Assembly (NCBI GenBank): GCA_938020445.1
Contig: CALIIC010000036.1
Location: forward strand, 1-64,000
Length of the DNA: 64,000 nucleotides
Reading direction: 5' to 3'
Origin: an uncultured Flavobacteriaceae bacterium
GTDB lineage: Bacteria > Bacteroidota > Bacteroidia > Flavobacteriales > Flavobacteriaceae
Below, piece by piece: positions 1,274-45,078 of the stretch (position 1 is its first letter; each line of letters opens with the position of its first letter). The notes below the pieces were generated by a model. That model was not told the DNA's origin. It saw only the letters and a list, made by a program, of their open reading frames with translations, and searched no databases. Made by a program: the position numbers and the translations under genes.

Positions 1274-2086
1274 TTATTTACTGGCAGTTTTTAAGGCTTT
1301 TTTTACCGAACCGTGTTTCTTTAATAAATCTTCGGCCTCTTCGTAACTAATTCCAAGGCCTTCCATAATATAACGGGTTCCGCGATCTACCAACTTATCA
1401 TTACTAAGCTGCATATTCACCATTTTATTTCCTTTGACCCTTCCGATTCGTATCATGAGCGCGGTAGAAATCATATTGAGCACCAATTTTTGAGAAGTAC
1501 CACTTTTCATACGGGTACTACCAGTTACAAATTCTGGTCCAACGTTGATTTCCATCGAAATCTCAGCGGCTTTGGAAAGCGGAGATCCAGGATTATTTGT
1601 AATACCGCCCGTTAACAAACCATTCTTGCGGGCATCATTGATACCACCTAAGACATATGGCGTTGTGCCCGATGCAGCAATCCCGACCACCGCATCGTCT
1701 GTGGTTAGGTCATGTTTCATAAGGTCTTTCCATGCCTGCATGGTATCATCCTCTGCGTTCTCAACTGCCTTACGAATGGCAGTATCCCCACCGGCAATGA
1801 GGCCAACTACGCGTTCATGGGGCATTCCAAAAGTGGGAGGTATTTCCGAAGCATCTAATATTCCTAAGCGGCCACTTGTTCCGGCACCAATATAAAATAA
1901 GCGTCCTCCCCTTTCAAAACGGCTTACCAACGCGTCTACCAGTGTTGTTATTTGTGGAATAATACGTTCTACAGCAGCCGCTATCTTACGATCTTCTTCG
2001 TTAATTTTTTCTAGCAAAGTAGTAGTGTCCATTTTTTCCAAATGGTCATGGTTTGAGGGGGTTTCGGTAATTTTAGTATAGTCCAT
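1274..2086 (-). CDS. murQ: N-acetylmuramic acid 6-phosphate etherase
   Basis: MurQ cleaves the lactyl ether of MurNAc-6-phosphate to give GlcNAc-6-phosphate and D-lactate in the cytoplasm. The 270-residue protein has the SIS sugar-phosphate fold: GAGTSGRLGILDASE at residues 67-81, with Glu81 matching the known catalytic glutamate, then PPTFG, the GG..AIRKAVENAEDD stretch and GSTRMKSGTSQK. It is somewhat shorter than E. coli MurQ (298 residues). It lies 97 bases downstream of the DeoR-type regulator in the same direction, opposite a nagB-ampG-nagZ-anmK cluster. It therefore fits peptidoglycan recycling rather than growth on external MurNAc; no PTS permease is visible. Confidence 0.93.
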   Translation of the reverse strand: MDYTKITETPSNHDHLEKMDTTTLLEKINEEDRKIAAAVERIIPQITTLVDALVSRFERGGRLFYIGAGTSGRLGILDASEIPPTFGMPHERVVGLIAGGDTAIRKAVENAEDDTMQAWKDLMKHDLTTDDAVVGIAASGTTPYVLGGINDARKNGLLTGGITNNPGSPLSKAAEISMEINVGPEFVTGSTRMKSGTSQKLVLNMISTALMIRIGRVKGNKMVNMQLSNDKLVDRGTRYIMEGLGISYEEAEDLLKKHGSVKKALKTASK

Positions 2087-2183: not shown

Positions 2184-2933
2184 CTACATTAATCGAATGT
2201 CGTGATTTCGAAACAAATTCAGTAAATTATTTTCGGGGTCCAATTCGGTGATCATCGTATTAATTTCGTTGATATCACATGTTTTATAACGATGTTGTGA
2301 GTTAAGTTTTTCAGAAATACACAAAACAACCGTTTTCCGCGCCGCTTTGATAACCGCTTTTTTTAATTGTACTATTTCCCAATCGAATTCGGTCAAGCCA
2401 TAAAGTGAATCTACATACCCCGTGCCAATAAAGCTATAGTCGACCCTTATTTCAGATAATTGATGAATGGTATGTGTACCAATTGCTATCTGTGCTTCAC
2501 CAGAAATTTTCCCACCAATAAATATCACTTCTACGTTGGGTTTGGTGAGCAATTGAAATGCCACTTGTAGACTTAAGGTGAAGCATGTGAGTTTTAACTG
2601 TTCAGGTACCAAACGTGCCAGTTCCAAGCAAGTTGTTCCTCCATCAATAAAAATTACAGACCCTTCCTTTAATAATTTAACGGCTTTCTCGGCTATCTTG
2701 GTTTTTTCGTCCAGGGCATACACATTGGTATTTGGCATATGCTCACTGGTAAAACCCAATGAAATGGCACCACCATGTACTTTTTTGAGTTTGCGGCCGG
2801 CGTCCAGCTCTTTGACATCTCTTCTAACGGTATCAATAGATACGTCCAAAGACTCGGCTATGTCGGTAAGCAATACCCGATTGTGTAAGGCAACCTCATT
2901 AAGAATGGCCCGTTGACGCTCTTCTTTTAGCAT
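2184..2933 (-). CDS. DeoR-family transcriptional regulator
   Basis: A 249-residue DeoR/GlpR-type regulator. The N-terminal helix-turn-helix is at about residues 6-55 (the LLTDIAESLDVSIDTVRRD region followed by KKVHGGAI). The C-terminal DeoRC sugar-phosphate sensor domain shows IFIDGGTTCLELA and FIGGKISGEAQ. Family members usually repress carbohydrate genes and release DNA on binding a phosphosugar. It is upstream of murQ and divergent from nagB, so it probably senses a recycling intermediate such as MurNAc-6-P, GlcNAc-6-P or GlcN-6-P. A -7 box TATCTTTG lies 20 bases before its start. A perfect 12-bp palindrome (2176-2187) covers its stop codon. Confidence 0.88.
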   Translation of the reverse strand: MLKEERQRAILNEVALHNRVLLTDIAESLDVSIDTVRRDVKELDAGRKLKKVHGGAISLGFTSEHMPNTNVYALDEKTKIAEKAVKLLKEGSVIFIDGGTTCLELARLVPEQLKLTCFTLSLQVAFQLLTKPNVEVIFIGGKISGEAQIAIGTHTIHQLSEIRVDYSFIGTGYVDSLYGLTEFDWEIVQLKKAVIKAARKTVVLCISEKLNSQHRYKTCDINEINTMITELDPENNLLNLFRNHDIRLM

Positions 2934-2953
2934 GTATCAGCATTTCTGTCCTG

Positions 2954-2961
2954 CAAAGATA
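2954..2961 (-). promoter_or_regulatory. -7 element of the deoR-type gene
   Basis: The minus strand reads TATCTTTG, an exact match to the Bacteroidota -7 consensus TAnnTTTG, 20 bases before the ATG at 2933. No clear -33 TTG is seen at the usual distance. Confidence 0.55.
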
Positions 2962-3025
2962 GAAAATATTTTCACATGCTGTTTCTTACCGTTTTTCGCC
3001 TGTTATGATTTAATAATTTGTAATA

Positions 3026-3062
3026 AAAGCATAAAACAGCAAAATAAAAAGCATAAAACGGC
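3026..3062 (+). repeat. 15-bp direct repeat, 22-bp period: putative regulator operator
   Basis: AAAGCATAAAACAGC (3026-3040) recurs as AAAGCATAAAACGGC (3048-3062) with one mismatch and a 22-bp period, about two helical turns. The second copy ends where the -33 element of the nagB promoter would lie, 19-20 bases before the -7 box at 3082. The core AAAAC(A/G)G also occurs twice in the opposite orientation at 2979-2986 and 2988-2995, towards the regulator gene. DeoR-family proteins commonly bind direct repeats. Binding here is inferred. Confidence 0.5.
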
Positions 3063-3081
3063 AATTATTGGTTTTTTTATG

Positions 3082-3089
3082 TACATTTG
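3082..3089 (+). promoter_or_regulatory. -7 element of the nagB operon
   Basis: TACATTTG matches TAnnTTTG exactly and lies 31 bases before the chosen nagB ATG. There is no good TTG at -33; that position is taken by the second direct repeat. The box lies inside the longer reading frame that runs back to 2932, which argues for the ATG at 3121 as the real start. Confidence 0.6.
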
Positions 3090-3120
3090 TCCCGTTCAAT
3101 TATCTAAAAAAACCATACGA

Positions 3121-5064
3121 ATGTCCGTAACATCTACAAAACCAAGGAGTATGAACTATCCCACCGATGAAGAATCCAGGAAATTTGAAAAAATCAATAC
3201 TGCTATCCACGAGAGTTCCGAGGAGGCCTCTTTTTTTGTAGCAAATGAGATAGCCGAACTGATCAGACAGCGCCAAAAAATAGGAAAAAACGTTGTTCTA
3301 GGATTGGCAACAGGATCTACCCCCACCAGGGTTTATGATTTTTTAGTGAAATTTCATAAAGAAGAGGGGCTTAGTTTTAAAAACGTAATCACTTTTAATT
3401 TGGACGAATACTTTCCCATGTCGCCTGATTCGATCCACAGTTATGTACGTTTTATGAATGAGCACCTTTTTGATCATATTGATATAAAAAAGGAGAACAT
3501 CCATATTCCAGATGGTACGCTCGAAAAAGAAGACGTAAAAGAGTACTGTTCAGAATATGAAGCCAAAATTGCCAGTTCAGGAGGCATCGACATTCAAGTA
3601 CTTGGTATTGGAAGAACGGGACACATCGGTTTCAACGAACCTGGGTCATCGCTAAAGAGTAAAACCAGAATGGTACGTTTAGATCGCGTAACCAGACTCG
3701 ATGCCGCAAGTGATTTCTTTGGCCTTGAAAATGTTCCTTCCAAAGCGTTGACTATGGGAGTTGGTACCATTATGGCCGCCAAACGTATTATTTTGATGGC
3801 CTGGGGAGAAGGCAAAGCGGGAATCATTAAACAAGCGGTTGAAGGGAAAATAAAGGAATCGGTTCCGGCTACCTTTTTGCAACAGCATGATAATTGTGAT
3901 TTCATCATTGATCATGCCGCTTCCTCTTCGTTGACAAGGATTTTCACCCCTTGGCTTACCAGTGAATGCAATTGGACGGATAATCTCATCAATAAAGCGA
4001 CCATATGGCTCTCTGAAAAACTTGATAAAGCCATCCTAAAGTTAACGAACGAAGACTATAACGAACATGGAATGGGAAGTCTAGTGGCCGAAATAGGATC
4101 TTCAGAACATATCAATTTAAAAGTATTCAATCATCTGCAACGAACCATAACCGGATGGCCAGGGGGCAAACCAAATGCCGATGACAGTAGTCGCCCGGAA
4201 CGGAAGTCGCCCTACCCCAAAACATCTCTTATATTCAGTCCGCATCCAGATGATGATGTTATTTCGATGGGGGGTACATTACTACGTTTGGTAGATCAAG
4301 GACATGAAGTACATGTTGCCTACCAAACCTCGGGAAACATAGCAGTATTTGATGATGAAGTGATACGGTTTATGGACTTTGCAACGGATATTCAGCAAGA
4401 TAATACCGCCCTTCAAACACAGTTCAAAGAGGTAAGGGAATTTCTCAGTAACAAATTACCCGGGCAGGTAGATAGTCCGGAGATTCAACAATTTAAAGGC
4501 TTGATCAGAAAGGGAGAAGCGCTAGCGGCCTGCCGGTATTGCGGCGTGAAAGAATCGAATGCCCATTTTCAAAACCTGCCATTTTATGAAACGGGCACGG
4601 TAAAGAAAAACCCGTATACCAGTGCCGATGTGCAGCTGACATATGACCTTTTGAACACCGTACAACCACATCAAATTTTTGCAGCAGGTGACCTTTCCGA
4701 CCCCCATGGTACACACCGGGTATGTCTTCAAATCATCTATGAAGCAATGGATCGGCTTGTAAAAGAAGGTGCAGAATGGATTAATGATTGTTATCTTTGG
4801 TTATATCGTGGTGCTTGGCAAGAATGGGATATTTCCGATATGGAAATGACGGTACCTATAGGTCCCAAAGACATGCAGCGTAAAAAGAATGCTATTTTCA
4901 AACATCAATCACAAAAGGATGCCGCTATGTTCCCTGGCAATGATGATCGAGAGTTTTGGCAACGGGCGGAGCAACGTAACAAAGAAACCGCACGAAAATA
5001 CAATGCCCTGGGCATGGCCGAGTATGAGGCCATGGAAGGTTTTGTTCGCTACCGTTTCAACTAA
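3121..5064 (+). CDS. nagB: Glucosamine-6-phosphate deaminase fused to PIG-L (LmbE-like) deacetylase domain
   Basis: A 647-residue two-domain protein. Residues about 25-290 are NagB, which turns GlcN-6-P into fructose-6-P and ammonia: LATGSTPT (62-69), TFNLDEY with Asp95, then GIGRTGHIGFNEP. His168 and Glu173 match E. coli His143 and Glu148, but Thr166 replaces Asp141. Residues about 365-640 are a PIG-L/LmbE zinc deacetylase domain, with HPDDD at 375-379 and DPHGTH at 527-532 as likely metal ligands. PIG-L enzymes remove acetyl from GlcNAc groups, so the fusion may deacetylate GlcNAc-6-P and then deaminate it. The start at 3121 was chosen because the promoter lies just upstream. It heads the ampG-nagZ-anmK operon. 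Confidence 0.92.
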   Translation: MSVTSTKPRSMNYPTDEESRKFEKINTAIHESSEEASFFVANEIAELIRQRQKIGKNVVLGLATGSTPTRVYDFLVKFHKEEGLSFKNVITFNLDEYFPMSPDSIHSYVRFMNEHLFDHIDIKKENIHIPDGTLEKEDVKEYCSEYEAKIASSGGIDIQVLGIGRTGHIGFNEPGSSLKSKTRMVRLDRVTRLDAASDFFGLENVPSKALTMGVGTIMAAKRIILMAWGEGKAGIIKQAVEGKIKESVPATFLQQHDNCDFIIDHAASSSLTRIFTPWLTSECNWTDNLINKATIWLSEKLDKAILKLTNEDYNEHGMGSLVAEIGSSEHINLKVFNHLQRTITGWPGGKPNADDSSRPERKSPYPKTSLIFSPHPDDDVISMGGTLLRLVDQGHEVHVAYQTSGNIAVFDDEVIRFMDFATDIQQDNTALQTQFKEVREFLSNKLPGQVDSPEIQQFKGLIRKGEALAACRYCGVKESNAHFQNLPFYETGTVKKNPYTSADVQLTYDLLNTVQPHQIFAAGDLSDPHGTHRVCLQIIYEAMDRLVKEGAEWINDCYLWLYRGAWQEWDISDMEMTVPIGPKDMQRKKNAIFKHQSQKDAAMFPGNDDREFWQRAEQRNKETARKYNALGMAEYEAMEGFVRYRFN

Positions 5065-5142: not shown

Positions 5143-6693
5143 ATGCGCGTTTTTCTTGGTATCCTTCTAATCTGTACTGGTATCGCTTCTTGTAGCAGTC
5201 TTAAAATTCCGCACCCAAAAACAGAGTTTAGAGGTTTTTGGGTAGCTACCGTGGTAAATATAGACTGGCCAAAAAGTGGAGCGGATGCGCTTGAAAAACA
5301 GCAGAACGATTTTCTTGAAATACTATCGTTTTATGAACAAATGAACTTCAATGCCGCTATTGTGCAAATACGCACTGCCGGAGACGCTTTTTATACATCT
5401 GATTTTGCGCCTTGGTCGCGTTTTCTGACCGGTCATGAAGGGAAGGTCAGGAAAAATCAGGAGGATCTTTTGAAATGGATGATTCGGGAAACCCACAAAA
5501 GAGGAATGGAGTTTCATGCCTGGTTGAACCCTTATAGAGCAACTTTTGATTTAAAAACGGAGGTCTTAAGCCCTATACACGACTACAACTTACATCCAGA
5601 ATGGATGGTACGATATGGAAAAAAGTACTATTACGATCCCGGTATACCTGAAGTAAGGCAGCGCATGGTGCAAGTTATCGAAGAGGTAGTCGCTAATTAC
5701 GATATAGATGGTGTCCATTTTGACGATTACTTTTACCCATATACGATAGCAGGTGAAGTCTTTAATGATTCTACCACTTTTTCCCAGTATCGATTGCCGA
5801 ACCAATCGTTACCCGATTGGCGCAGGTCGAATATCGATTCCTTGGTACAAAACAGTCATCAGTATATAAAAGCGAAAAAACCGTGGGTTCAATTTGGAGT
5901 GAGTCCGTTCGGAGTATGGAAAAATAAGGCCACCGACCCTATGGGGTCAGATACCCAAGCCGGGCAAACCACCTATGAAAACCTCTTTGCGGACCCCATA
6001 CTTTGGGCAGATCAAGGTTGGCTCGATTATCTGTTGCCCCAAGTATATTGGAGTATGGAACTCCCCGTGGCCTCCCATAGAAAAATAACGCACTGGTGGG
6101 CCAATAATACAAATAACGCCAACCTTTACATTGGGAACGGTCCGTATAAGATTCGTAACAATTCGGATAAAGCTTGGGACGATCCTCAAGAATTACCAAG
6201 GCAATTATATTTGGCCCGGATGACCGATCGTGTAAAGGGCAACGTATTTTTTAGTGCCAAGAGCCTAATGAAGGAACATCCAGATATCGTTACGGAACTA
6301 CAAAAAAAATACTACCCGTATAAAGCCCTTCCACCAGTTTCGCCTTTGGCACCGAGAATGGAGAAGCAAATCATTCATCCTCCTGTGATGGATAAGACCG
6401 TTGATTCTTTGCACCTTAAGTTTGAAAATCTTGATAACTACCGTTATGCGCTCGCTTATAAGTCTGGAAAGCGTAAAAAGGATGCGTATTCAATGAAAAA
6501 ACTACAAGGCCGTACCTCAATAGGTAAAAATGGAATGGTCGTTTTCCCATCCAAACTCTTAAAAAAACGAAAATACATTGCCCTCAGTTTTATAGATTTT
6601 TACGGTAGAGAAACCGACCCGATCATAGTACCTTTAAAAAAGAGTATTTCTACCCTACAAACGAATAACATGAATTCTAACGCTACCAGATGA
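5143..6693 (+). CDS. GHL10 (DUF187) glycosyl hydrolase-like lipoprotein, DigH-like
   Basis: A 516-residue lipoprotein: signal sequence with lipobox IASC (Cys17), then a GHL10/DUF187 TIM-barrel domain with EFRGFWVATVVNIDWP near residues 28-43 and DGVHFDDYFYP at 189-199, where Asp194/Asp195 are candidate catalytic acids. E. coli DigH (YddW) of this family is an outer-membrane lipoprotein that acts on peptide-free peptidoglycan glycans. It sits between nagB and ampG and its stop overlaps the ampG start by 4 bases, so it probably frees glycan fragments for import. The linkage cut is not readable. C-terminal residues about 410-500 look like an Fn3-type beta domain. Confidence 0.82.
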   Translation: MRVFLGILLICTGIASCSSLKIPHPKTEFRGFWVATVVNIDWPKSGADALEKQQNDFLEILSFYEQMNFNAAIVQIRTAGDAFYTSDFAPWSRFLTGHEGKVRKNQEDLLKWMIRETHKRGMEFHAWLNPYRATFDLKTEVLSPIHDYNLHPEWMVRYGKKYYYDPGIPEVRQRMVQVIEEVVANYDIDGVHFDDYFYPYTIAGEVFNDSTTFSQYRLPNQSLPDWRRSNIDSLVQNSHQYIKAKKPWVQFGVSPFGVWKNKATDPMGSDTQAGQTTYENLFADPILWADQGWLDYLLPQVYWSMELPVASHRKITHWWANNTNNANLYIGNGPYKIRNNSDKAWDDPQELPRQLYLARMTDRVKGNVFFSAKSLMKEHPDIVTELQKKYYPYKALPPVSPLAPRMEKQIIHPPVMDKTVDSLHLKFENLDNYRYALAYKSGKRKKDAYSMKKLQGRTSIGKNGMVVFPSKLLKKRKYIALSFIDFYGRETDPIIVPLKKSISTLQTNNMNSNATR

Positions 6694-7964
6694 TACAAAA
6701 AGACAAATGGGCTTGGGCATGGGTACCAACAGTTTATTTTACGCAAGGGTTACCGTACGTGCTTGTGGTGACTGTTTCGGTAATCATGTACAAAAAGCTA
6801 GGGGTTAGCAACGAAGATATTGGCCTTTATACAAGTCTGCTCTATCTGCCCTGGGTATTAAAACCGCTTTGGAGCCCCTTTGTTGACCTTAAAAGTACCA
6901 AACGTAAATGGTTCTTAGGAATGCAATTACTGATATCCCTCGCATTGTTCGGGGTCGGCCTGTGCTTACCAACCAATATGTTTTTCATGACTAGCTTGGC
7001 TTGTTTTTGGATGGCGGCATTTGCATCGGCAACCAACGATATTGCTTCCGACGGATATTATATGCTTGGATTGTCTGAGCAAAAACAATCCTTTTTTGTG
7101 GGCATGCGCAGTACTTTTTATAGACTGGCAATGGTCACAGGGGAAGGACTGATCGTTATCTTGGCGGGGTATTTGGAACATCGTTACGGAGATAATACCA
7201 AAGCATGGAGTGTCACCATGACCGCGGCTGCGTTTTTAATGCTACTACTAACGGTCACCAATTTCTTTACGACCCCAAAATTTGAAACTTCCGCCTCGGT
7301 TGCGGTTGAAAAACCCAAAGGTTTTATTGAGGTGTTCGTTTCATTCTTTCAAAAACCCCAGATCGGTATCGCACTTGCTTTTATTCTATGTTATCGTTTG
7401 GGCGAGTCTCAACTGGTAAAAATGGCAGCGCCCTTTTTACTTGACGACCCTACGAAAGGCGGTCTTGGTTATTCTACGGAAGAAATCGGGGCCATTTTTG
7501 GAACTGCGGGGGTCATCATGTTATCGATAGGAGGTATCTTAGGAGGCATACTCATTTCTAGGGACGGTTTAAAAAAATGGATGCTTCCAATGGTCTTATC
7601 ACTCAACGTACCCAACGTCCTCTATGCGATTTTAGCGTTTACCAATACAACGAATATTTACGCGGTCTCCGCCACCGTAGTTTTTGAGAAATTTGGCTAT
7701 GGCTTTGGTTTTACCGCTTTCTTAATGTATTTGATCTATATCGCCGAGGGAAAATCAAAAACATCGCACTATGCCATCGCAACCGGCTTTATGGCTTTGG
7801 GAATGATGTTGCCCGGAATGTTAAGTGGGTATATTCAAAAATGGTTGGGTTATGATGGTTTCTTTGTATGGGTCGTCATCGCTGCATTACCAGCATTTTT
7901 CCTTTTAAAATATATTAAATACCCTGCAGATTTTGGCAAAAAAACCTCCTCATCAAATGCATAG
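6690..7964 (+). CDS. ampG: AmpG-like muropeptide permease (MFS)
   Basis: A 424-residue, about 12-helix major facilitator of the AmpG type, which imports GlcNAc-anhydroMurNAc (peptides) across the inner membrane. Near the N-terminus it has YFTQGLPYVLV and, after a loop, LPWVLKPLWSPFVD, both typical of AmpG; ATNDIASDGY follows in the central part. The ATG overlaps the preceding stop (ATGA) and its end overlaps nagZ by 8 bases, so translation is probably coupled. The operon of nagZ, anmK and nagB supports the muropeptide role over other AmpG-like substrates. Confidence 0.87.
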   Translation: MIQKDKWAWAWVPTVYFTQGLPYVLVVTVSVIMYKKLGVSNEDIGLYTSLLYLPWVLKPLWSPFVDLKSTKRKWFLGMQLLISLALFGVGLCLPTNMFFMTSLACFWMAAFASATNDIASDGYYMLGLSEQKQSFFVGMRSTFYRLAMVTGEGLIVILAGYLEHRYGDNTKAWSVTMTAAAFLMLLLTVTNFFTTPKFETSASVAVEKPKGFIEVFVSFFQKPQIGIALAFILCYRLGESQLVKMAAPFLLDDPTKGGLGYSTEEIGAIFGTAGVIMLSIGGILGGILISRDGLKKWMLPMVLSLNVPNVLYAILAFTNTTNIYAVSATVVFEKFGYGFGFTAFLMYLIYIAEGKSKTSHYAIATGFMALGMMLPGMLSGYIQKWLGYDGFFVWVVIAALPAFFLLKYIKYPADFGKKTSSSNA

Positions 7965-9522
7965 TCTTATCGAATACAAGGACGCTCAAAAACAACTTTC
8001 CCTAAAAGAGAAAGTAGGGCAATTTTTTATGCCTGCAGCCTTTATAAACGATTCAGAAGAAGAAATACAGGAATTGGAAAAACTAATTTCCGAGCATTGT
8101 GTAGGCTCCCTTTGCTTTTTTCATAGCCGCGCCAGTGCAGCCACGAACTTTGAGGGCAAGAAAGAGGTTATTTATAATGCGAATAGCTTCGACCTATTAA
8201 AAAAAATGATCCATCGCTACCAAAAAGCGGCAAAGTATCCCTTATTGATTGCGATCGATGCGGAGTGGGGTTTGGCCATGCGAATAGAAAACACACCACA
8301 GTATCCATATGCTATTACCCTTGGGGCTATTCAAGATCAAAATGAACTGCTATTTGAAGTGGGTAAAAACATTGCCCATGATTGTAAAGTGGCCGGTATA
8401 CATTGGAACTTGGGACCAGTACTGGATATTAATAACAACCCCGACAATCCCGTAATCGGATATCGTTCCTTCGGAGAACACAAATTGGAAGTGACCGCTA
8501 AAGCGCACGCCTTTGTTAAAGGCACGGAAAGCCAGGGAGTACTTACGAGTATCAAACACTTTCCCGGCCATGGCGATACCGCAACGGACTCCCATTTAGA
8601 ACTACCCTTAATTGAAAAATCAAAAGAAGCCCTTTTTTCAAACGAGTTATATCCTTTTCAAAAAATCATAGATGAAGGGGTAGATTCGGTGATGATCGGG
8701 CATTTATCGGTGCCTTCCTTGACCGATGGCAGCCTTATTTCATCCAGTATTTCAAAGCATATTATCAAAGGAACCTTACGTACCGAAATGGGTTTTAGAG
8801 GTGTTGTAATCTCAGATGCATTGAATATGCATGCCGTTACAAAAAACTACCCCATAAAGGGAGAATTGGAATGGTTGGCCTTCGACGCGGGCAACGACGT
8901 ACTTTGCTTTACAGAACATGTCTCCGAAGGCATTGCCGCTATTTTGAAAAACGCCGATGCGGCACAAATAGATGAGAGTTTTGAAAGAGTATGGCGATTG
9001 AAAGAAAAAGGGATTGTTTCTATAACAGGAAGTAATGAGGAACTTTCGGATGCCGACCTTTTAAACTCCAAAATAGCCGAAGCAAGTTTAACGCTCGTAA
9101 AAGGAACCGAAAAAGACATTGCCGCTTTTCGGGAAGAAGGCTATCAATCTGTAAGCATCAAAAAAGAGGGTGAAACCCTCACTAACAAGGAAATTCAAGA
9201 TAAAATCAAGGCATTGGAAGCCCAGATTTCAAATGAGAACATTCTTTTGTTGTTAACACCCCCAAAAGTAAAGCCCGCCGATAATTTTGAAATTTCTGAA
9301 CAAGAACTCGCTTTTATTCATAAATTAATTGAAACAAAGAAGGTGGTTCTATACGTTTTTGGCAATCCTTATGTCTTAAATTTGATTCAAACCAAAGCTA
9401 CGACCGCCGTGGTTTGTGTATATCAAAATTTGAAAGCTTTTCAGCGCTATGCAGGCATGCATTTCCTCGGAAATGTAAAAGCAAATGGAAAATTACCCGT
9501 GACCATTAAAGATCTAAACTAA
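7957..9522 (+). CDS. nagZ: Beta-N-acetylhexosaminidase, GH3 NagZ type
   Basis: A GH3 enzyme that removes GlcNAc from anhydro-muropeptides. The NagZ hallmark KHFPGHGDTATDSH is at residues 200-213, holding the Asp211-His213 dyad, and the nucleophile Asp287 lies in VVISDALNMH. With 521 residues it is longer than E. coli NagZ (341) and carries the second GH3 domain at about 340-520. No signal peptide is visible, so it should be cytoplasmic, downstream of AmpG. ATG 7957 is preferred over an in-frame TTG at 7933; it overlaps ampG by 8 bases. AnmK follows after 49 bases. Confidence 0.9.
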   Translation: MHSLIEYKDAQKQLSLKEKVGQFFMPAAFINDSEEEIQELEKLISEHCVGSLCFFHSRASAATNFEGKKEVIYNANSFDLLKKMIHRYQKAAKYPLLIAIDAEWGLAMRIENTPQYPYAITLGAIQDQNELLFEVGKNIAHDCKVAGIHWNLGPVLDINNNPDNPVIGYRSFGEHKLEVTAKAHAFVKGTESQGVLTSIKHFPGHGDTATDSHLELPLIEKSKEALFSNELYPFQKIIDEGVDSVMIGHLSVPSLTDGSLISSSISKHIIKGTLRTEMGFRGVVISDALNMHAVTKNYPIKGELEWLAFDAGNDVLCFTEHVSEGIAAILKNADAAQIDESFERVWRLKEKGIVSITGSNEELSDADLLNSKIAEASLTLVKGTEKDIAAFREEGYQSVSIKKEGETLTNKEIQDKIKALEAQISNENILLLLTPPKVKPADNFEISEQELAFIHKLIETKKVVLYVFGNPYVLNLIQTKATTAVVCVYQNLKAFQRYAGMHFLGNVKANGKLPVTIKDLN

Positions 9523-9571
9523 AAACTGCAATCAACTTACGAACAGCCAAATGACCTAATACCCATTGCAA

Positions 9572-10648
9572 ATGAAAACTTTTACTATCCTAGGTCTTAT
9601 GTCCGGTACTTCTTTAGACGGCCTTGACCTTGCATATTGTATCCTAACAAAAGATCTGGATCAATGGTCCTTTGAAATTTCTAAGACAAAAAGTATTCCC
9701 TATACCGCCGACATGCAAGTTGAATTGAAGGATTCAATTTATTTAAAGGCAGATGAATTACTAGTATTTAGCAATGATTACGGTACTTGGTTGGGAGAAC
9801 AGGCCAAAGCATTTATTGATGAACATAAACTTTCGGTAGACTACATTGCCAGTCATGGCCATACTTCGCACCACCAGCCAAAGAAAGGCCTTACCTTTCA
9901 GATAGGTTCCGGACAGCACCTGGCCAATGCCAGTGGACAAAAAGTGGTTTGCGATTTTAGAACCAATGACGTTTCGCTGAACGGACAAGGGGCACCATTG
10001 GTACCCATCGGGGACCGGTTGTTTTTTGGAGCATATGATTTCTGTTTGAACCTTGGCGGTATAAGTAATATTTCTTTTGAGCAAAAGGGAAAGCGAATTG
10101 CCTATGACATTGGTTTGGCAAATATGATCCTAAATTATATTACACGTAAAATAGGACTCGATTATGACGCAGGTGGAGAACTTGCTGCAAAAGGTACCAT
10201 GAATTCCTCCATGCTACAGCAATTGAACGAACTAAAATATTACCTCCTACCCTATCCCAAGTCAATCGGGTACGAGTGGTTTGTAGAAGAAGTCGCTCCC
10301 ATTGTAGATGCGACGGATGATACAATCGAAAATTTACTGCACACTGGCGTGCATCATGTTTGCGAAAAGGTGGCGCAACAAATAAAGTTGAACAGTAACG
10401 GTGCAGAGACTAAACTTTTTGTGACGGGCGGCGGAGCCCTTAACCATTTCTTGATCAAAACACTTCAAGAAAAGCTGGGAACAGCCACCAAGGTGATCGT
10501 TCCGAACCCCACCCTTATCGAATTTAAAGAAGCACTGGTTTTCGCGTTAATGGGTGCTTTGCGCGTAGAAAAAGAAATCAATGTACTTTGTTCCGTGACC
10601 GGTGCCAAGCGAGATTCCTCTAGTGGGGTTGTTTACTTACCGGGCTAG
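9572..10648 (+). CDS. anmK: Anhydro-N-acetylmuramic acid kinase
   Basis: A 358-residue kinase that hydrolyses and phosphorylates 1,6-anhydroMurNAc to MurNAc-6-phosphate, the substrate of MurQ. The N-terminal GLMSGTSLDGLDLA is diagnostic, followed by FRTNDVSLNGQGAPLVP, the LNLGGISNIS phosphate loop, AYDIGLANMILN with the conserved Asp, and VTGGGALNHFL near the C-terminus. The start is ATG 9572; an in-frame TTG two codons earlier is less likely. Last gene of the recycling operon. The AnmK/MurQ pair is the standard Gram-negative anhydro-muropeptide route. Confidence 0.94.
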   Translation: MKTFTILGLMSGTSLDGLDLAYCILTKDLDQWSFEISKTKSIPYTADMQVELKDSIYLKADELLVFSNDYGTWLGEQAKAFIDEHKLSVDYIASHGHTSHHQPKKGLTFQIGSGQHLANASGQKVVCDFRTNDVSLNGQGAPLVPIGDRLFFGAYDFCLNLGGISNISFEQKGKRIAYDIGLANMILNYITRKIGLDYDAGGELAAKGTMNSSMLQQLNELKYYLLPYPKSIGYEWFVEEVAPIVDATDDTIENLLHTGVHHVCEKVAQQIKLNSNGAETKLFVTGGGALNHFLIKTLQEKLGTATKVIVPNPTLIEFKEALVFALMGALRVEKEINVLCSVTGAKRDSSSGVVYLPG

Positions 10649-42129: not shown

Positions 42130-45078
42130 ATGAGAACAAGACTACTTGTGCTTGCATTATTCTGCGGCGCGCTACTTCAAGCACAGGATTACTTCCCGAA
42201 AAACGACGGGGTAAAATCCAAAAACAATAACTACACGGCCTTCACCAACGCAAAGATTTATGTTACACCTACCCAAATTATCGATGGGGGTACCTTACTG
42301 GTCCAAAACGGTAAGGTAGTGCAATCCGGTAAGGGCATCACATTGCCCAAAAATACGGTCGTGGTAGATTTGGAGGGCAAATCAATCTATCCTTCTTTTA
42401 TAGATGTGTATTCCAAATTTGGTATAAAACAGGCCGAACGCGCCCCTCGTTCAGGAAGAAACGCCCAGTACGATTCTTCTAGGGAAGGTTTTTATTGGAA
42501 CGATCATATTCGACCTGAAACGAATGCAATAACCAATCTTAAATACGATGACAAGAAAGCGAAAGATCTTCGCGAAGCCGGCTTTGGAGTGGTAAACTCA
42601 CACATACAAGATGGTGTTGCTAGAGGCTCTGGGGTGTTAATTTCCTTGAATAGCCAGGGCAATGACGCCGACCGAATTTTAGACGATCGTTCCGCTCAGT
42701 ATTTCTCTTTTGATCGTAGCATTGCCAACAATCAATCGTATCCAACTTCGCTCATGGGGAGTATGGCCTTACTGCGGCAAATGTATTATGATGCAAACTG
42801 GTATGCCAAGGGCAATATTGCGACAAAAGACCGTTCCTTAGAGGCCCTTAATAAGAATAAAGGGATGATACAGATATTCTATGCAGGGGATAAAGGTCAT
42901 GTGGTGCGTGCCGATGGTATCGGGGATACATTTGGAATTCAATATACAATCGTTGGCGGAGGAGATGAATATGAGCGCATCGATGATATAAAAGCAACCA
43001 ATGCCAAACTAATTCTTCCATTGAATTTCCCGTCGGCCTATGATGTTTCCAATCCGTATCACGCGACATACGTCTCTTTGGCAGATATGCGACATTGGAA
43101 TCAAGCGCCTGCAAATCCCAAGATACTGGCCGAAAACGGCGTGGTTTTCTCGTTTACGGCCCACGACCTAAAATCGATGAAGGACTTTAAGACAAACCTA
43201 CTCAAAGCCATTTCACATGGTCTTTCCAAGACAAAAGCCCTTGAAGCCTTGACAACGGTTCCTGCCCAACTATTAGGACAATCTTCAAAAATAGGAAGCT
43301 TACAAAATGGACGATGGGCCAATTTCCTGATCGCTTCTGGTGATATATTTGATTCTAAGACAACCTTATATGAAAACTGGGTGCAAGGACATAAAACTAT
43401 CGTTAGCGATATGTCTTTAAAAGATATTCGAGGGGACTATACCCTATCGGCTGCAGGGAAGACCTTTATGCTATCCATAAATGGGGAAGCCGGGAAACCA
43501 AAGGCTACCGTAAAGCAAGATACGTTGAAACTGACATCAAAATTCAGTTATAAAAACGACTGGATAACCCTCTCGTTCGGGGATAAAGACAAAAACAATT
43601 ACCGTATGACCGGTCGTGTATCCGGAACTTCGGACAAACTAAGTGGAAAAGTGGCGCTTCCTAATGGAAACGAAAGTGCTTTTTCTGCCGTGAAGACCAT
43701 GGCTTTCGAAAAAAAGAAAAAAGATGAAAAGAACGAGCAGGAACAACCTGAATTAGTCGAAGTGAAGTTCCCCAACATTGCGTACGGCTATACGGCTATA
43801 CCCAAAGCAGAAAATCTATTGTTTAAGAATGCGACCGTTTGGACAAGTGAAGAAAGCGGTGTTTTGGAGCGTACCGATGTGCTGGTTAAGAATGGAAAAA
43901 TTGCCAAGGTCGGGAAAGGTCTAAATGCGGGAGGAGCAAAAGTAATCGATGCGACCGGCAAACACTTAACTGCCGGTATTATTGATGAACACAGTCATAT
44001 CGCAGCCCTATCGATCAACGAAGCAGGTCATAATTCAACCGCGGAGGTCAAGATGGAAGATGTGGTAGACCCAGAGGACAAAGGTATTTACCACGCATTG
44101 GCAGGTGGGGTAACTTCTTTACAATTGCTGCATGGTTCGGCCAACCCCATTGGTGGGCGATCGGCCATTTTAAAACTTAAGTGGGGCGAAAGTGCCGAAA
44201 AGATGATTTATGATAACACTCCCAAATTTATCAAGTTCGCATTGGGTGAAAACGTAAAGCAGAGCAATTGGCAGAGTTTTAGTCGCTTCCCTCAAACCCG
44301 TATGGGTGTAGAACAAGTATTTATGAATTACTTCCAGCGTGCGAAGGAATATGAGATTCAAAAGAAAAGCGGACAACCATTCCGATATGACGAGGAAATG
44401 GAAACCTTGGTTGAGATTATTAATGGAGAACGTTTTATTAGTTGCCACTCCTATGTGCAAAGTGAAATCAATATGATGATGAAGGTTGCCGAAAAATTTG
44501 GTTTCCGAGTCAATACATTCACCCACATACTCGAGGGATATAAAGTAGCCGATAAAATGGCCAAACATGGAGCGGGCGGTGGTACGTTTAGCGATTGGTG
44601 GGCCTACAAATTTGAGGTAAACGATGCAATTCCCTACAATGCGGCCATTATGCAAAGCCAAGGGGTCACCGTTGCTATTAACAGTGATGATGCAGAAATG
44701 ATCCGAAGATTGAACCAAGAAGCGGGTAAAATCGTGAAATACGGCGGACTTAGTGAAGAAGAAGCCTGGAAAATGGTCACCATCAACCCTGCCAAACTAT
44801 TGCACTTAGATGACCGTACCGGAAGTATCAAAGTAGGTAAGGATGCCGATTTGGTCTTATGGAGCGATCACCCCTTATCGGTATATGCCAAGGCAGAGAA
44901 AACCATTATAGACGGTGCTACTTATTTTGATCTAGAAAAAGACAAACAGCTGCGGGAATCGGTCAAACAAGAACGCAATCGCCTTATCAACATGATGCTG
45001 AAAGAAAAATCGGGCGGCGGAAAAACGCAGCAGCCAAAAATGAAGAAAAAAGAATTGATGCATTGCGAATCACTTTAA
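42130..45078 (+). CDS. Exported double-domain amidohydrolase
   Basis: A 982-residue exported protein (signal peptide, cut near LLQAQ) with two amidohydrolase modules. The first (about 30-440) keeps the small beta domain but has lost the metal motif: FIDVYSKFG replaces FxDxHxH. The second (about 565-960) has DEHSH (619-623) and later metal-site regions such as NTFTHILEG and VAINSDDAE, so it is probably active. Relatives act as dipeptidases or imidazolone-propionase-like hydrolases. A second amidohydrolase gene follows after 47 bases. Substrate unknown. Confidence 0.85.
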   Translation: MRTRLLVLALFCGALLQAQDYFPKNDGVKSKNNNYTAFTNAKIYVTPTQIIDGGTLLVQNGKVVQSGKGITLPKNTVVVDLEGKSIYPSFIDVYSKFGIKQAERAPRSGRNAQYDSSREGFYWNDHIRPETNAITNLKYDDKKAKDLREAGFGVVNSHIQDGVARGSGVLISLNSQGNDADRILDDRSAQYFSFDRSIANNQSYPTSLMGSMALLRQMYYDANWYAKGNIATKDRSLEALNKNKGMIQIFYAGDKGHVVRADGIGDTFGIQYTIVGGGDEYERIDDIKATNAKLILPLNFPSAYDVSNPYHATYVSLADMRHWNQAPANPKILAENGVVFSFTAHDLKSMKDFKTNLLKAISHGLSKTKALEALTTVPAQLLGQSSKIGSLQNGRWANFLIASGDIFDSKTTLYENWVQGHKTIVSDMSLKDIRGDYTLSAAGKTFMLSINGEAGKPKATVKQDTLKLTSKFSYKNDWITLSFGDKDKNNYRMTGRVSGTSDKLSGKVALPNGNESAFSAVKTMAFEKKKKDEKNEQEQPELVEVKFPNIAYGYTAIPKAENLLFKNATVWTSEESGVLERTDVLVKNGKIAKVGKGLNAGGAKVIDATGKHLTAGIIDEHSHIAALSINEAGHNSTAEVKMEDVVDPEDKGIYHALAGGVTSLQLLHGSANPIGGRSAILKLKWGESAEKMIYDNTPKFIKFALGENVKQSNWQSFSRFPQTRMGVEQVFMNYFQRAKEYEIQKKSGQPFRYDEEMETLVEIINGERFISCHSYVQSEINMMMKVAEKFGFRVNTFTHILEGYKVADKMAKHGAGGGTFSDWWAYKFEVNDAIPYNAAIMQSQGVTVAINSDDAEMIRRLNQEAGKIVKYGGLSEEEAWKMVTINPAKLLHLDDRTGSIKVGKDADLVLWSDHPLSVYAKAEKTIIDGATYFDLEKDKQLRESVKQERNRLINMMLKEKSGGGKTQQPKMKKKELMHCESL

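Follow-up and report, generated by a model that had tools for sequence, protein, structure and literature searches.

Proteins in which a NagB deaminase is joined to a PIG-L domain are already catalogued as the family NF002557 (PRK02122), which has the same full-length architecture as the fusion protein described here and whose profile the fusion covers almost completely; the name of this family refers to the deaminase half alone, and the PIG-L half has no named function there. The NagB of structure 2bkv, which we take to be the Bacillus subtilis enzyme, is 43% identical to the N-terminal half of the fusion but itself has no PIG-L half; in B. subtilis, NagA is a separate enzyme. NagA (TIGR00221), the amidohydrolase that deacetylates N-acetylglucosamine 6-phosphate (GlcNAc-6-P), carries out the same reaction that we propose for the fusion but is not homologous to it. 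On the PIG-L side, the archaeal diacetylchitobiose deacetylase Dac (3wl3, 8bgn) is the closest solved relative by sequence and among the closest by fold; unlike the fused PIG-L half, it is a stand-alone enzyme. BshB (6ull, TIGR04001) has its fold and HxDD motif in common with the PIG-L half; however, the fusion scores only 23.7 bits against the BshB model (cut-off, 182.5). Four PIG-L matches are encoded in the genome studied here, among them a separate BshB1 at 303 bits, and a bacillithiol role for the fusion was rejected on the strength of this separate protein and the low BshB score.

A review of LmbE-like proteins, in the part of its text that deals with substrates, names compounds with a GlcNAc core, describes PIG-L/LmbE members that act on conjugates or oligosaccharides, and gives unphosphorylated chitobiose as the substrate of the Thermococcus chitobiose deacetylase; the term "6-phosphate" does not occur in the review text (PMC4101496). 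In titles and the beginnings of abstracts, the open-licence literature yielded no paper on the PIG-L half of the NagB fusion; among seven papers listed by one search, glucosamine-6-phosphate deaminase never occurred jointly with the term PIG-L or LmbE, and the literature searches brought up no PIG-L enzyme acting on GlcNAc-6-P. The architecture itself is known; what is new here is the function proposed for the PIG-L half and the phylum-wide gap that it may fill.

The fusion gene, which belongs to a marine flavobacterium, lies near one end of the window, i.e., the whole stretch of 64,000 nucleotides that was analysed, in the following arrangement.

1274 to 2086, minus strand: murQ, N-acetylmuramic acid 6-phosphate etherase, which makes GlcNAc-6-P (TIGR00274, 310.3 bits; cut-off, 302)
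2184 to 2933, minus strand: DeoR-family sugar-phosphate regulator (PF00455 and PF08220)
2934 to 3120, no strand: divergent promoter/operator region between deoR and the fusion
3121 to 5064, plus strand: nagB-PIG-L fusion, 647 amino acids (NF002557, 1061 bits; AlphaFold2 model)
3208 to 3933, plus strand: NagB (GlcN-6-P deaminase) domain, residues 30-271 (TIGR00502; 2bkv, Z 37.5), with D95, H168 and E173 present
3937 to 4209, plus strand: interdomain segment TITGWPGGKP...RPER, residues 273-363, highly conserved
4228 to 4746, plus strand: PIG-L core, residues 370-542 (PF02585); the fold runs on to residue 647
4243 to 4257, plus strand: metal motif 1, HPDDD, residues 375-379, aligned to chitobiose deacetylases
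4699 to 4716, plus strand: metal motif 2, DPHGTH, residues 527-532, aligned to HPDH of 2ixd
5143 to 6693, plus strand: GHL10 glycosyl-hydrolase-like gene, a variable member of the locus (PF02638)
6690 to 7964, plus strand: ampG-like muropeptide transporter (TIGR00901, 195.1 bits, under the cut-off of 350)
7933 to 9522, plus strand: nagZ-like GH3 beta-N-acetylhexosaminidase (PF00933; best NCBIfam match PRK05337, 145.1 bits, under the cut-off of 207)
9566 to 10648, plus strand: anmK, anhydro-N-acetylmuramic acid kinase (NF007144, 500.5 bits; cut-off, 436)

The sequence-only reading of this gene as a NagB domain fused to a PIG-L domain with HPDDD and DPHGTH motifs was confirmed by its matches to NF002557 (1061.4 bits over residues 6-646; cut-off, 384), to the TIGR00502 nagB model (264 bits; cut-off, 236.9), to PF01182 in Pfam (residues 33-256), and to PF02585 (64.6 bits; gathering score, 28.2), the PIG-L domain being placed identically by a second search. 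The active-site Asp, His and Glu of NagB are D95, H168 and E173 in the fusion, corresponding to what we take to be D72, H143 and E148 of the Escherichia coli enzyme; the position of E. coli D141 is presumably that of T166. The NagB half is a predicted deaminase that would convert GlcN-6-P to fructose-6-P. Residues H375, D377, D378 and H532 of the other half make up the HxD1D2 + H metal site by which the LmbE review, in its account of that site, defines PIG-L/LmbE-like proteins (PMC4101496). An R/E pair at 463/466 is also retained. This half is a predicted N-deacetylase for a GlcNAc compound. The fusion gave no match to the NagA model TIGR00221 (cut-off, 225.65 bits) at E values up to 0.001; the protein may act like NagA but is no NagA by homology. 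A longer variant of the open reading frame begins at position 2932; this start is unlikely, since the ATG at 3121 does not vary across eight aligned upstream regions and follows a conserved TAnnTTTG box.

The folds seen in a predicted model agree with these assignments. The AlphaFold2 model of the fusion had a mean pLDDT of 87.5 and a pTM of 0.80; its residues 25-272 resembled the NagB structure 2bkv (Z 37.5, rmsd 1.1), and a PIG-L fold was evident from the comparison of residues 366-647 with BshB 6ull (Z 21.3, rmsd 2.8, 210 residues aligned) and of residues 279-647 with chitobiose deacetylase 3wl3 (Z 21.3, rmsd 4.8). In the alignment with 2ixd, the HPDH of that protein lies opposite HGTH of the fusion. 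The fold alone is no proof of deacetylation, since the GalB hydratase 5cgz has the same fold (Z 20.1). This match lends something to the view that the substrate of the PIG-L half is unrelated or not a sugar, or that this half works as a hydratase, and that members without NagA use another deacetylase or none. We consider that view quite unlikely, given that the full HxDD + H set and the R/E pair are kept and that the PIG-L domain is fused, or adjacent, to a GlcN-6-P deaminase; the genomic evidence that bears on it is taken up below.

In a profile search with the PIG-L half, chitobiose deacetylases ranked first (E 2.8e-11), and NagZ releases GlcNAc. It could accordingly be proposed that the PIG-L half deacetylates GlcNAc, either free or in a short oligosaccharide, and that a kinase phosphorylates the resulting GlcN before the NagB half acts on it; the rank of chitobiose deacetylases as nearest solved sequences and the occurrence of some fusions away from murQ would both fit such a route. 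Its prospects are nevertheless poor: MurQ and AnmK of the same locus yield a 6-phosphate, which the route could not use, and since the NagB half needs a 6-phosphate, a 6-phosphate substrate shared by both halves is the simpler arrangement. We therefore regard GlcNAc-6-P as the more probable substrate of the PIG-L half and this alternative as unlikely.

The placement of the fusion with ampG, nagZ and anmK and opposite murQ, as originally described, is present in the window and recurs across a comparison set of 80 fusion loci from genomes that nearly all belong to Flavobacteriaceae or its genera. murQ was divergent from the fusion in at least 77 of the 80 loci and deoR stood beside it in at least 78; ampG was found in at least 54, nagZ in at least 55, anmK in at least 47 and GHL10 in at least 51, all of these counts being lower bounds because some loci are short or incomplete. 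The arrangement of the fusion locus is no chance association. Beyond the Flavobacteriaceae set, murQ was seen at only 4 of the 56 loci for which some 1.5 kb of flank was available (with the window's own locus counted in). From this difference between clade and outside loci (77/80 versus 4/56), it is concluded that the link between MurQ and the fusion is old and has been kept in this clade and that the contexts elsewhere differ. In an Allomuricauda locus (L070:8030-13381), the fusion is followed by another DeoR-like gene and by a pair resembling SusC/SusD, all named by eye; this locus keeps murQ, and ampG-nagZ-anmK are absent from the fetched stretch. The proposed context of peptidoglycan recycling is thus right for this clade but too narrow as a full account, given the scarcity of murQ in the outside loci and the SusC/D-like pair in Allomuricauda, and the role of the fusion is probably wider than peptidoglycan recycling.

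The region between the divergent deoR-murQ and fusion genes suggests how the two steps may be coordinated. An alignment of the window with seven hand-chosen loci contains four conserved GC(A) half-sites over the eight upstream regions. TAnnTTTG-type boxes, which we take to be the Bacteroidota -7 box, are found at 3082-3089 on the plus strand and at 2954-2961 on the minus strand; on the opposite strand, the matching TATCTTTG box faces deoR-murQ and is conserved in the aligned upstream regions. The GC(A) half-sites within this bidirectional promoter region (2954-3089 of the window) are likely DeoR operators. In addition, 18-nucleotide direct repeats lie at 3025-3042 and 3047-3064; repeats of this kind were present in three of the five regions tested (the window, L047 and L049) and not in L053 or L059. 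The conserved boxes on both strands, the half-sites and the direct repeats between the genes suggest that MurQ and the fusion are under common control. Scans for sigma-70-type promoters (24 versus 22.2) and for terminators (11 versus 9.4) performed no better than shuffled sequences.

Conservation of the PIG-L catalytic residues across the aligned fusions is strict. H375, D377, D378 and H529 were present in all 136 aligned fusions, and H532 and D379 each in 133. The metal site was intact in 133 of the 136, the three exceptions (H532Q, D379A) belonging to one lineage with a canonical NagA. It was intact in every one of the 37 fusions whose genomes lack a NagA match, in 15 of the 18 whose genomes have one, and in 81 of 81 from a group that comprises the murQ clade or genomes whose status was not listed, only part of which were searched for NagA. 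The exceptional lineage, family f8 (L040, L041, L200 and L228), has both H532Q and D379A in all four of its fusions. A short NagB lies directly beside the fusion in all four of these genomes (in G021, as far as a partial view extends), the NagB half lacks H168 in three of the four fusions and in one of these lacks D95 as well, and NagA, with no signal-like start, was present in each of the three genomes searched (all but G524). As all four represent one lineage, these losses probably reflect one event, in the direction that replacement of NagA predicts.

One lineage thus keeps its PIG-L half although the third metal ligand is gone, as might also be expected if this half were a regulatory or structural appendage, e.g., a device that senses GlcNAc-6-P and adjusts the deaminase accordingly, and E. 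coli NagB is indeed allosterically activated by GlcNAc-6-P. We hold this to be improbable, since the metal ligands and the general base are intact in 133 of 136 fusions and a domain that did nothing but sense would have no use for them. The interdomain segment is no less conserved than the domains on either side: in residues 273-363, 34% of the positions are at least 98% identical across the 136 fusions, the corresponding figure for the NagB domain and for the PIG-L core alike being 28%. This conservation is consistent with a working interface without proving one.

Genome G312 (6.2 Mb, 97% complete) has no NagA match and encodes the two halves as separate neighbouring genes (L216; NagB at 8059-8850, PIG-L at 7175-8035), the best match of each being one part of NF002557. 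Its PIG-L protein keeps HPDDDVISMGG, DPHGTH and the WLYRGAWQEW block. The evidence from this split pair rests on a single genome, as the one further genome available from the family, which is 83% complete, had no match. An exception to the replacement pattern is provided by G464, a member of Flavobacteriaceae without a NagA match, in which a fusion-type NagB (L214:1423-2220) stops short of any PIG-L half and has an rmlA-like gene (named by eye) as its neighbour. The gene for a more distant NagB-PIG-L-like protein of 791 amino acids (L215:7416-9791), which has the altered motifs HHDD and DTHYK and no Pfam PIG-L match, immediately adjoins an ordinary short nagB; the genome concerned has no NagA match.

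The initial observation that the locus contains no nagA holds, and apparently it holds for the clade as well. A search of the window's own genome (81.9% complete) found no separate nagA, the top TIGR00221 score being 32.5 bits against a cut-off of 225.65. That similarity lies at 44707-44868 of the window, spans model positions 315-368, and falls within a 988-amino-acid open frame that is not NagA by score. Among 41 relatives with the fusion that were searched from the set of 80, 39 had no NagA match at E 1e-10; scoring took in every NagA candidate of all but two genomes, for which it took in 35 of 37 and 35 of 40. The two remaining relatives, G482 (two NagA-like proteins) and G486 (one), gave scores of 223-246 bits; by eye, these proteins have hydrophobic, signal-peptide-like N termini, and the neighbours at two of the three sites are apparently not amino-sugar genes. 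With 39 of 41 relatives lacking a match and the other two having signal-peptide-like proteins only, the absence of NagA seems to apply to the clade and not just to the locus. Flavobacteriaceae NagA-like proteins with signal-peptide-like starts (L183, L184 and L185) are possibly exported deacetylases.

To extend this comparison, 392 genomes of the phylum were surveyed for NagA at E 1e-20, with up to four candidates scored per genome. The fusion was present above the cut-off in 171 genomes, and NagA in 77 (65 above the curated cut-off and 12 below it). NagA matches were absent from 124 of the 171 fusion genomes and present in 47, whereas among 34 genomes with an ordinary short NagB they were absent from 10 and present in 24; the difference in absence is strong, but its p value (Fisher, 5e-6, not corrected for kinship) is indicative only, because the surveyed genomes are related. 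The short-NagB set was obtained from 58 genomes by removing 24, namely, 21 with E values weaker than 1e-59 plus G464, G474 and G312, which were excluded as fusion-like, fragmentary or split. In the Bacteroides ihuae control genome, the fusion model matched and NagA did not at E 1e-20; for the fusion model, one control genome in all was over the cut-off, a count that is not tied to a name.

It is very improbable that NagA only seems absent because the genomes are incomplete or because the model overlooks a divergent form of it. The window's genome is indeed incomplete and the phylum survey scored few candidates per genome; against this, scoring was nearly complete in the 41 relatives, where the model caught three NagA-like proteins as distant as 223-246 bits, and fuller scoring of family f37 gave the same picture. 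In that family, with nearly all candidates scored, NagA was found at E 1e-20 in 4 of 39 genomes, not all of which carry the fusion, and the others reached at most 35 bits. An assignment of f37 to Bacteroidaceae, and thus to known GlcNAc users, was dropped, as the context of L198 is rather like that of another class.

murQ was present in 169 of the 171 fusion genomes; however, 79 of the 392 genomes have murQ and neither a NagB nor a NagA match, so MurQ does not demand a deacetylase, and co-occurrence with murQ was rejected as proof of replacement. Likewise, NagB does not demand NagA, as the 10 of 34 short-NagB genomes without it show. The 79 murQ genomes, together with the coexistence of NagA and the fusion in 47 of 171 genomes, also favour an unrelated substrate for the PIG-L half; the failure of the clade search to turn up a cytosolic NagA counts against it and for the NagA reaction.

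Replacement is not universal, as the same 47 genomes indicate. At least three fusion genomes carry NagA close to a fusion gene: in G047 and G410, some 0.1 kb separates it from a fusion whose metal site is intact, and in G338 the distance to a fusion copy is about 5.2 kb. In G047, the two genes sit with AGE-family epimerase-like and sialate esterase-like genes (named by eye). Where NagA adjoins the fusion, the PIG-L half may do something else. In G269 and G297, on the other hand, NagA adjoins a short NagB with about 29% identity to the NagB half of the fusion, and in G066 and G105 it lies 3-5 kb from a short NagB match; with a short NagB nearby in each case, the NagA of these four genomes may be a separate cassette. 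The treatment of all NagA matches as equivalent is weakened by these four genomes and by the signal-like starts in G482 and G486; the figure of 47 of 171 still includes all such matches.

The genus Echinicola belongs to the same phylum. Of the five bacteria treated in the relevant part of the GapMind study, four had NagA implicated in their use of glucosamine (Fig. 3A to 3D), and the fifth is Echinicola vietnamensis (Fig. 3E) (PMC9007349). That Echinicola stands outside the four is compatible with replacement but no demonstration of it. In Flavobacterium johnsoniae, a passage on chitin use reports that deletion of nagB (Fjoh_4557) had no phenotype on chitin, perhaps, in its authors' view, because three further nagB-like genes are redundant with it, that a separate NagA (Fjoh_3974) is predicted, and that expression of the NagB in E. 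coli failed (PMC5127042). The Fjoh_4557 result would count against replacement if this protein is of the long form.

The suggestion that the fusion replaces NagA has therefore gained comparative support, from 39 of 41 relatives, from the contrast between 124 of 171 and 10 of 34 genomes, and from the conserved metal site, although replacement is not universal. It is better supported now than it was from the sequence alone, and we hold it with moderate confidence. We postulate that the PIG-L half would deacetylate GlcNAc-6-P, the reaction of NagA, and that the NagB half would convert the resulting GlcN-6-P to fructose-6-P and ammonia, so that both steps would take place in one chain, perhaps with the product handed on within it, and GlcNAc-6-P would pass straight to fructose-6-P. 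The domains, the intact catalytic residues, the folds of the predicted model, the conserved locus and the lack of a NagA match are observed; we infer the deacetylase activity, its GlcNAc-6-P substrate and any handing-on of the product.

In conclusion, it is reasonably likely that the fusion is a two-step catabolic enzyme and a non-orthologous stand-in for NagA, both in this clade and, probably, in the majority of Bacteroidota that carry it. A fuller scenario can be put forward only tentatively: a PIG-L enzyme that started as the product of an adjacent gene and later became part of the NagB chain might have replaced NagA in the majority of Bacteroidota with the fusion (canonical NagA is missing from 124 of 171 such genomes in the sample), taking GlcNAc-6-P to fructose-6-P in one chain, perhaps channelled via the interdomain segment. 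If this is true, the many Bacteroidota that seem unable to use GlcNAc-6-P, having NagB and no NagA match, would have a complete pathway, and models of chitin, mucin-sugar and cell-wall recycling would need correction. Amino-sugar catabolism and peptidoglycan recycling would be rewritten for a large part of the phylum, and the PIG-L superfamily would gain a 6-phosphate-sugar enzyme and a role in central sugar-phosphate catabolism.
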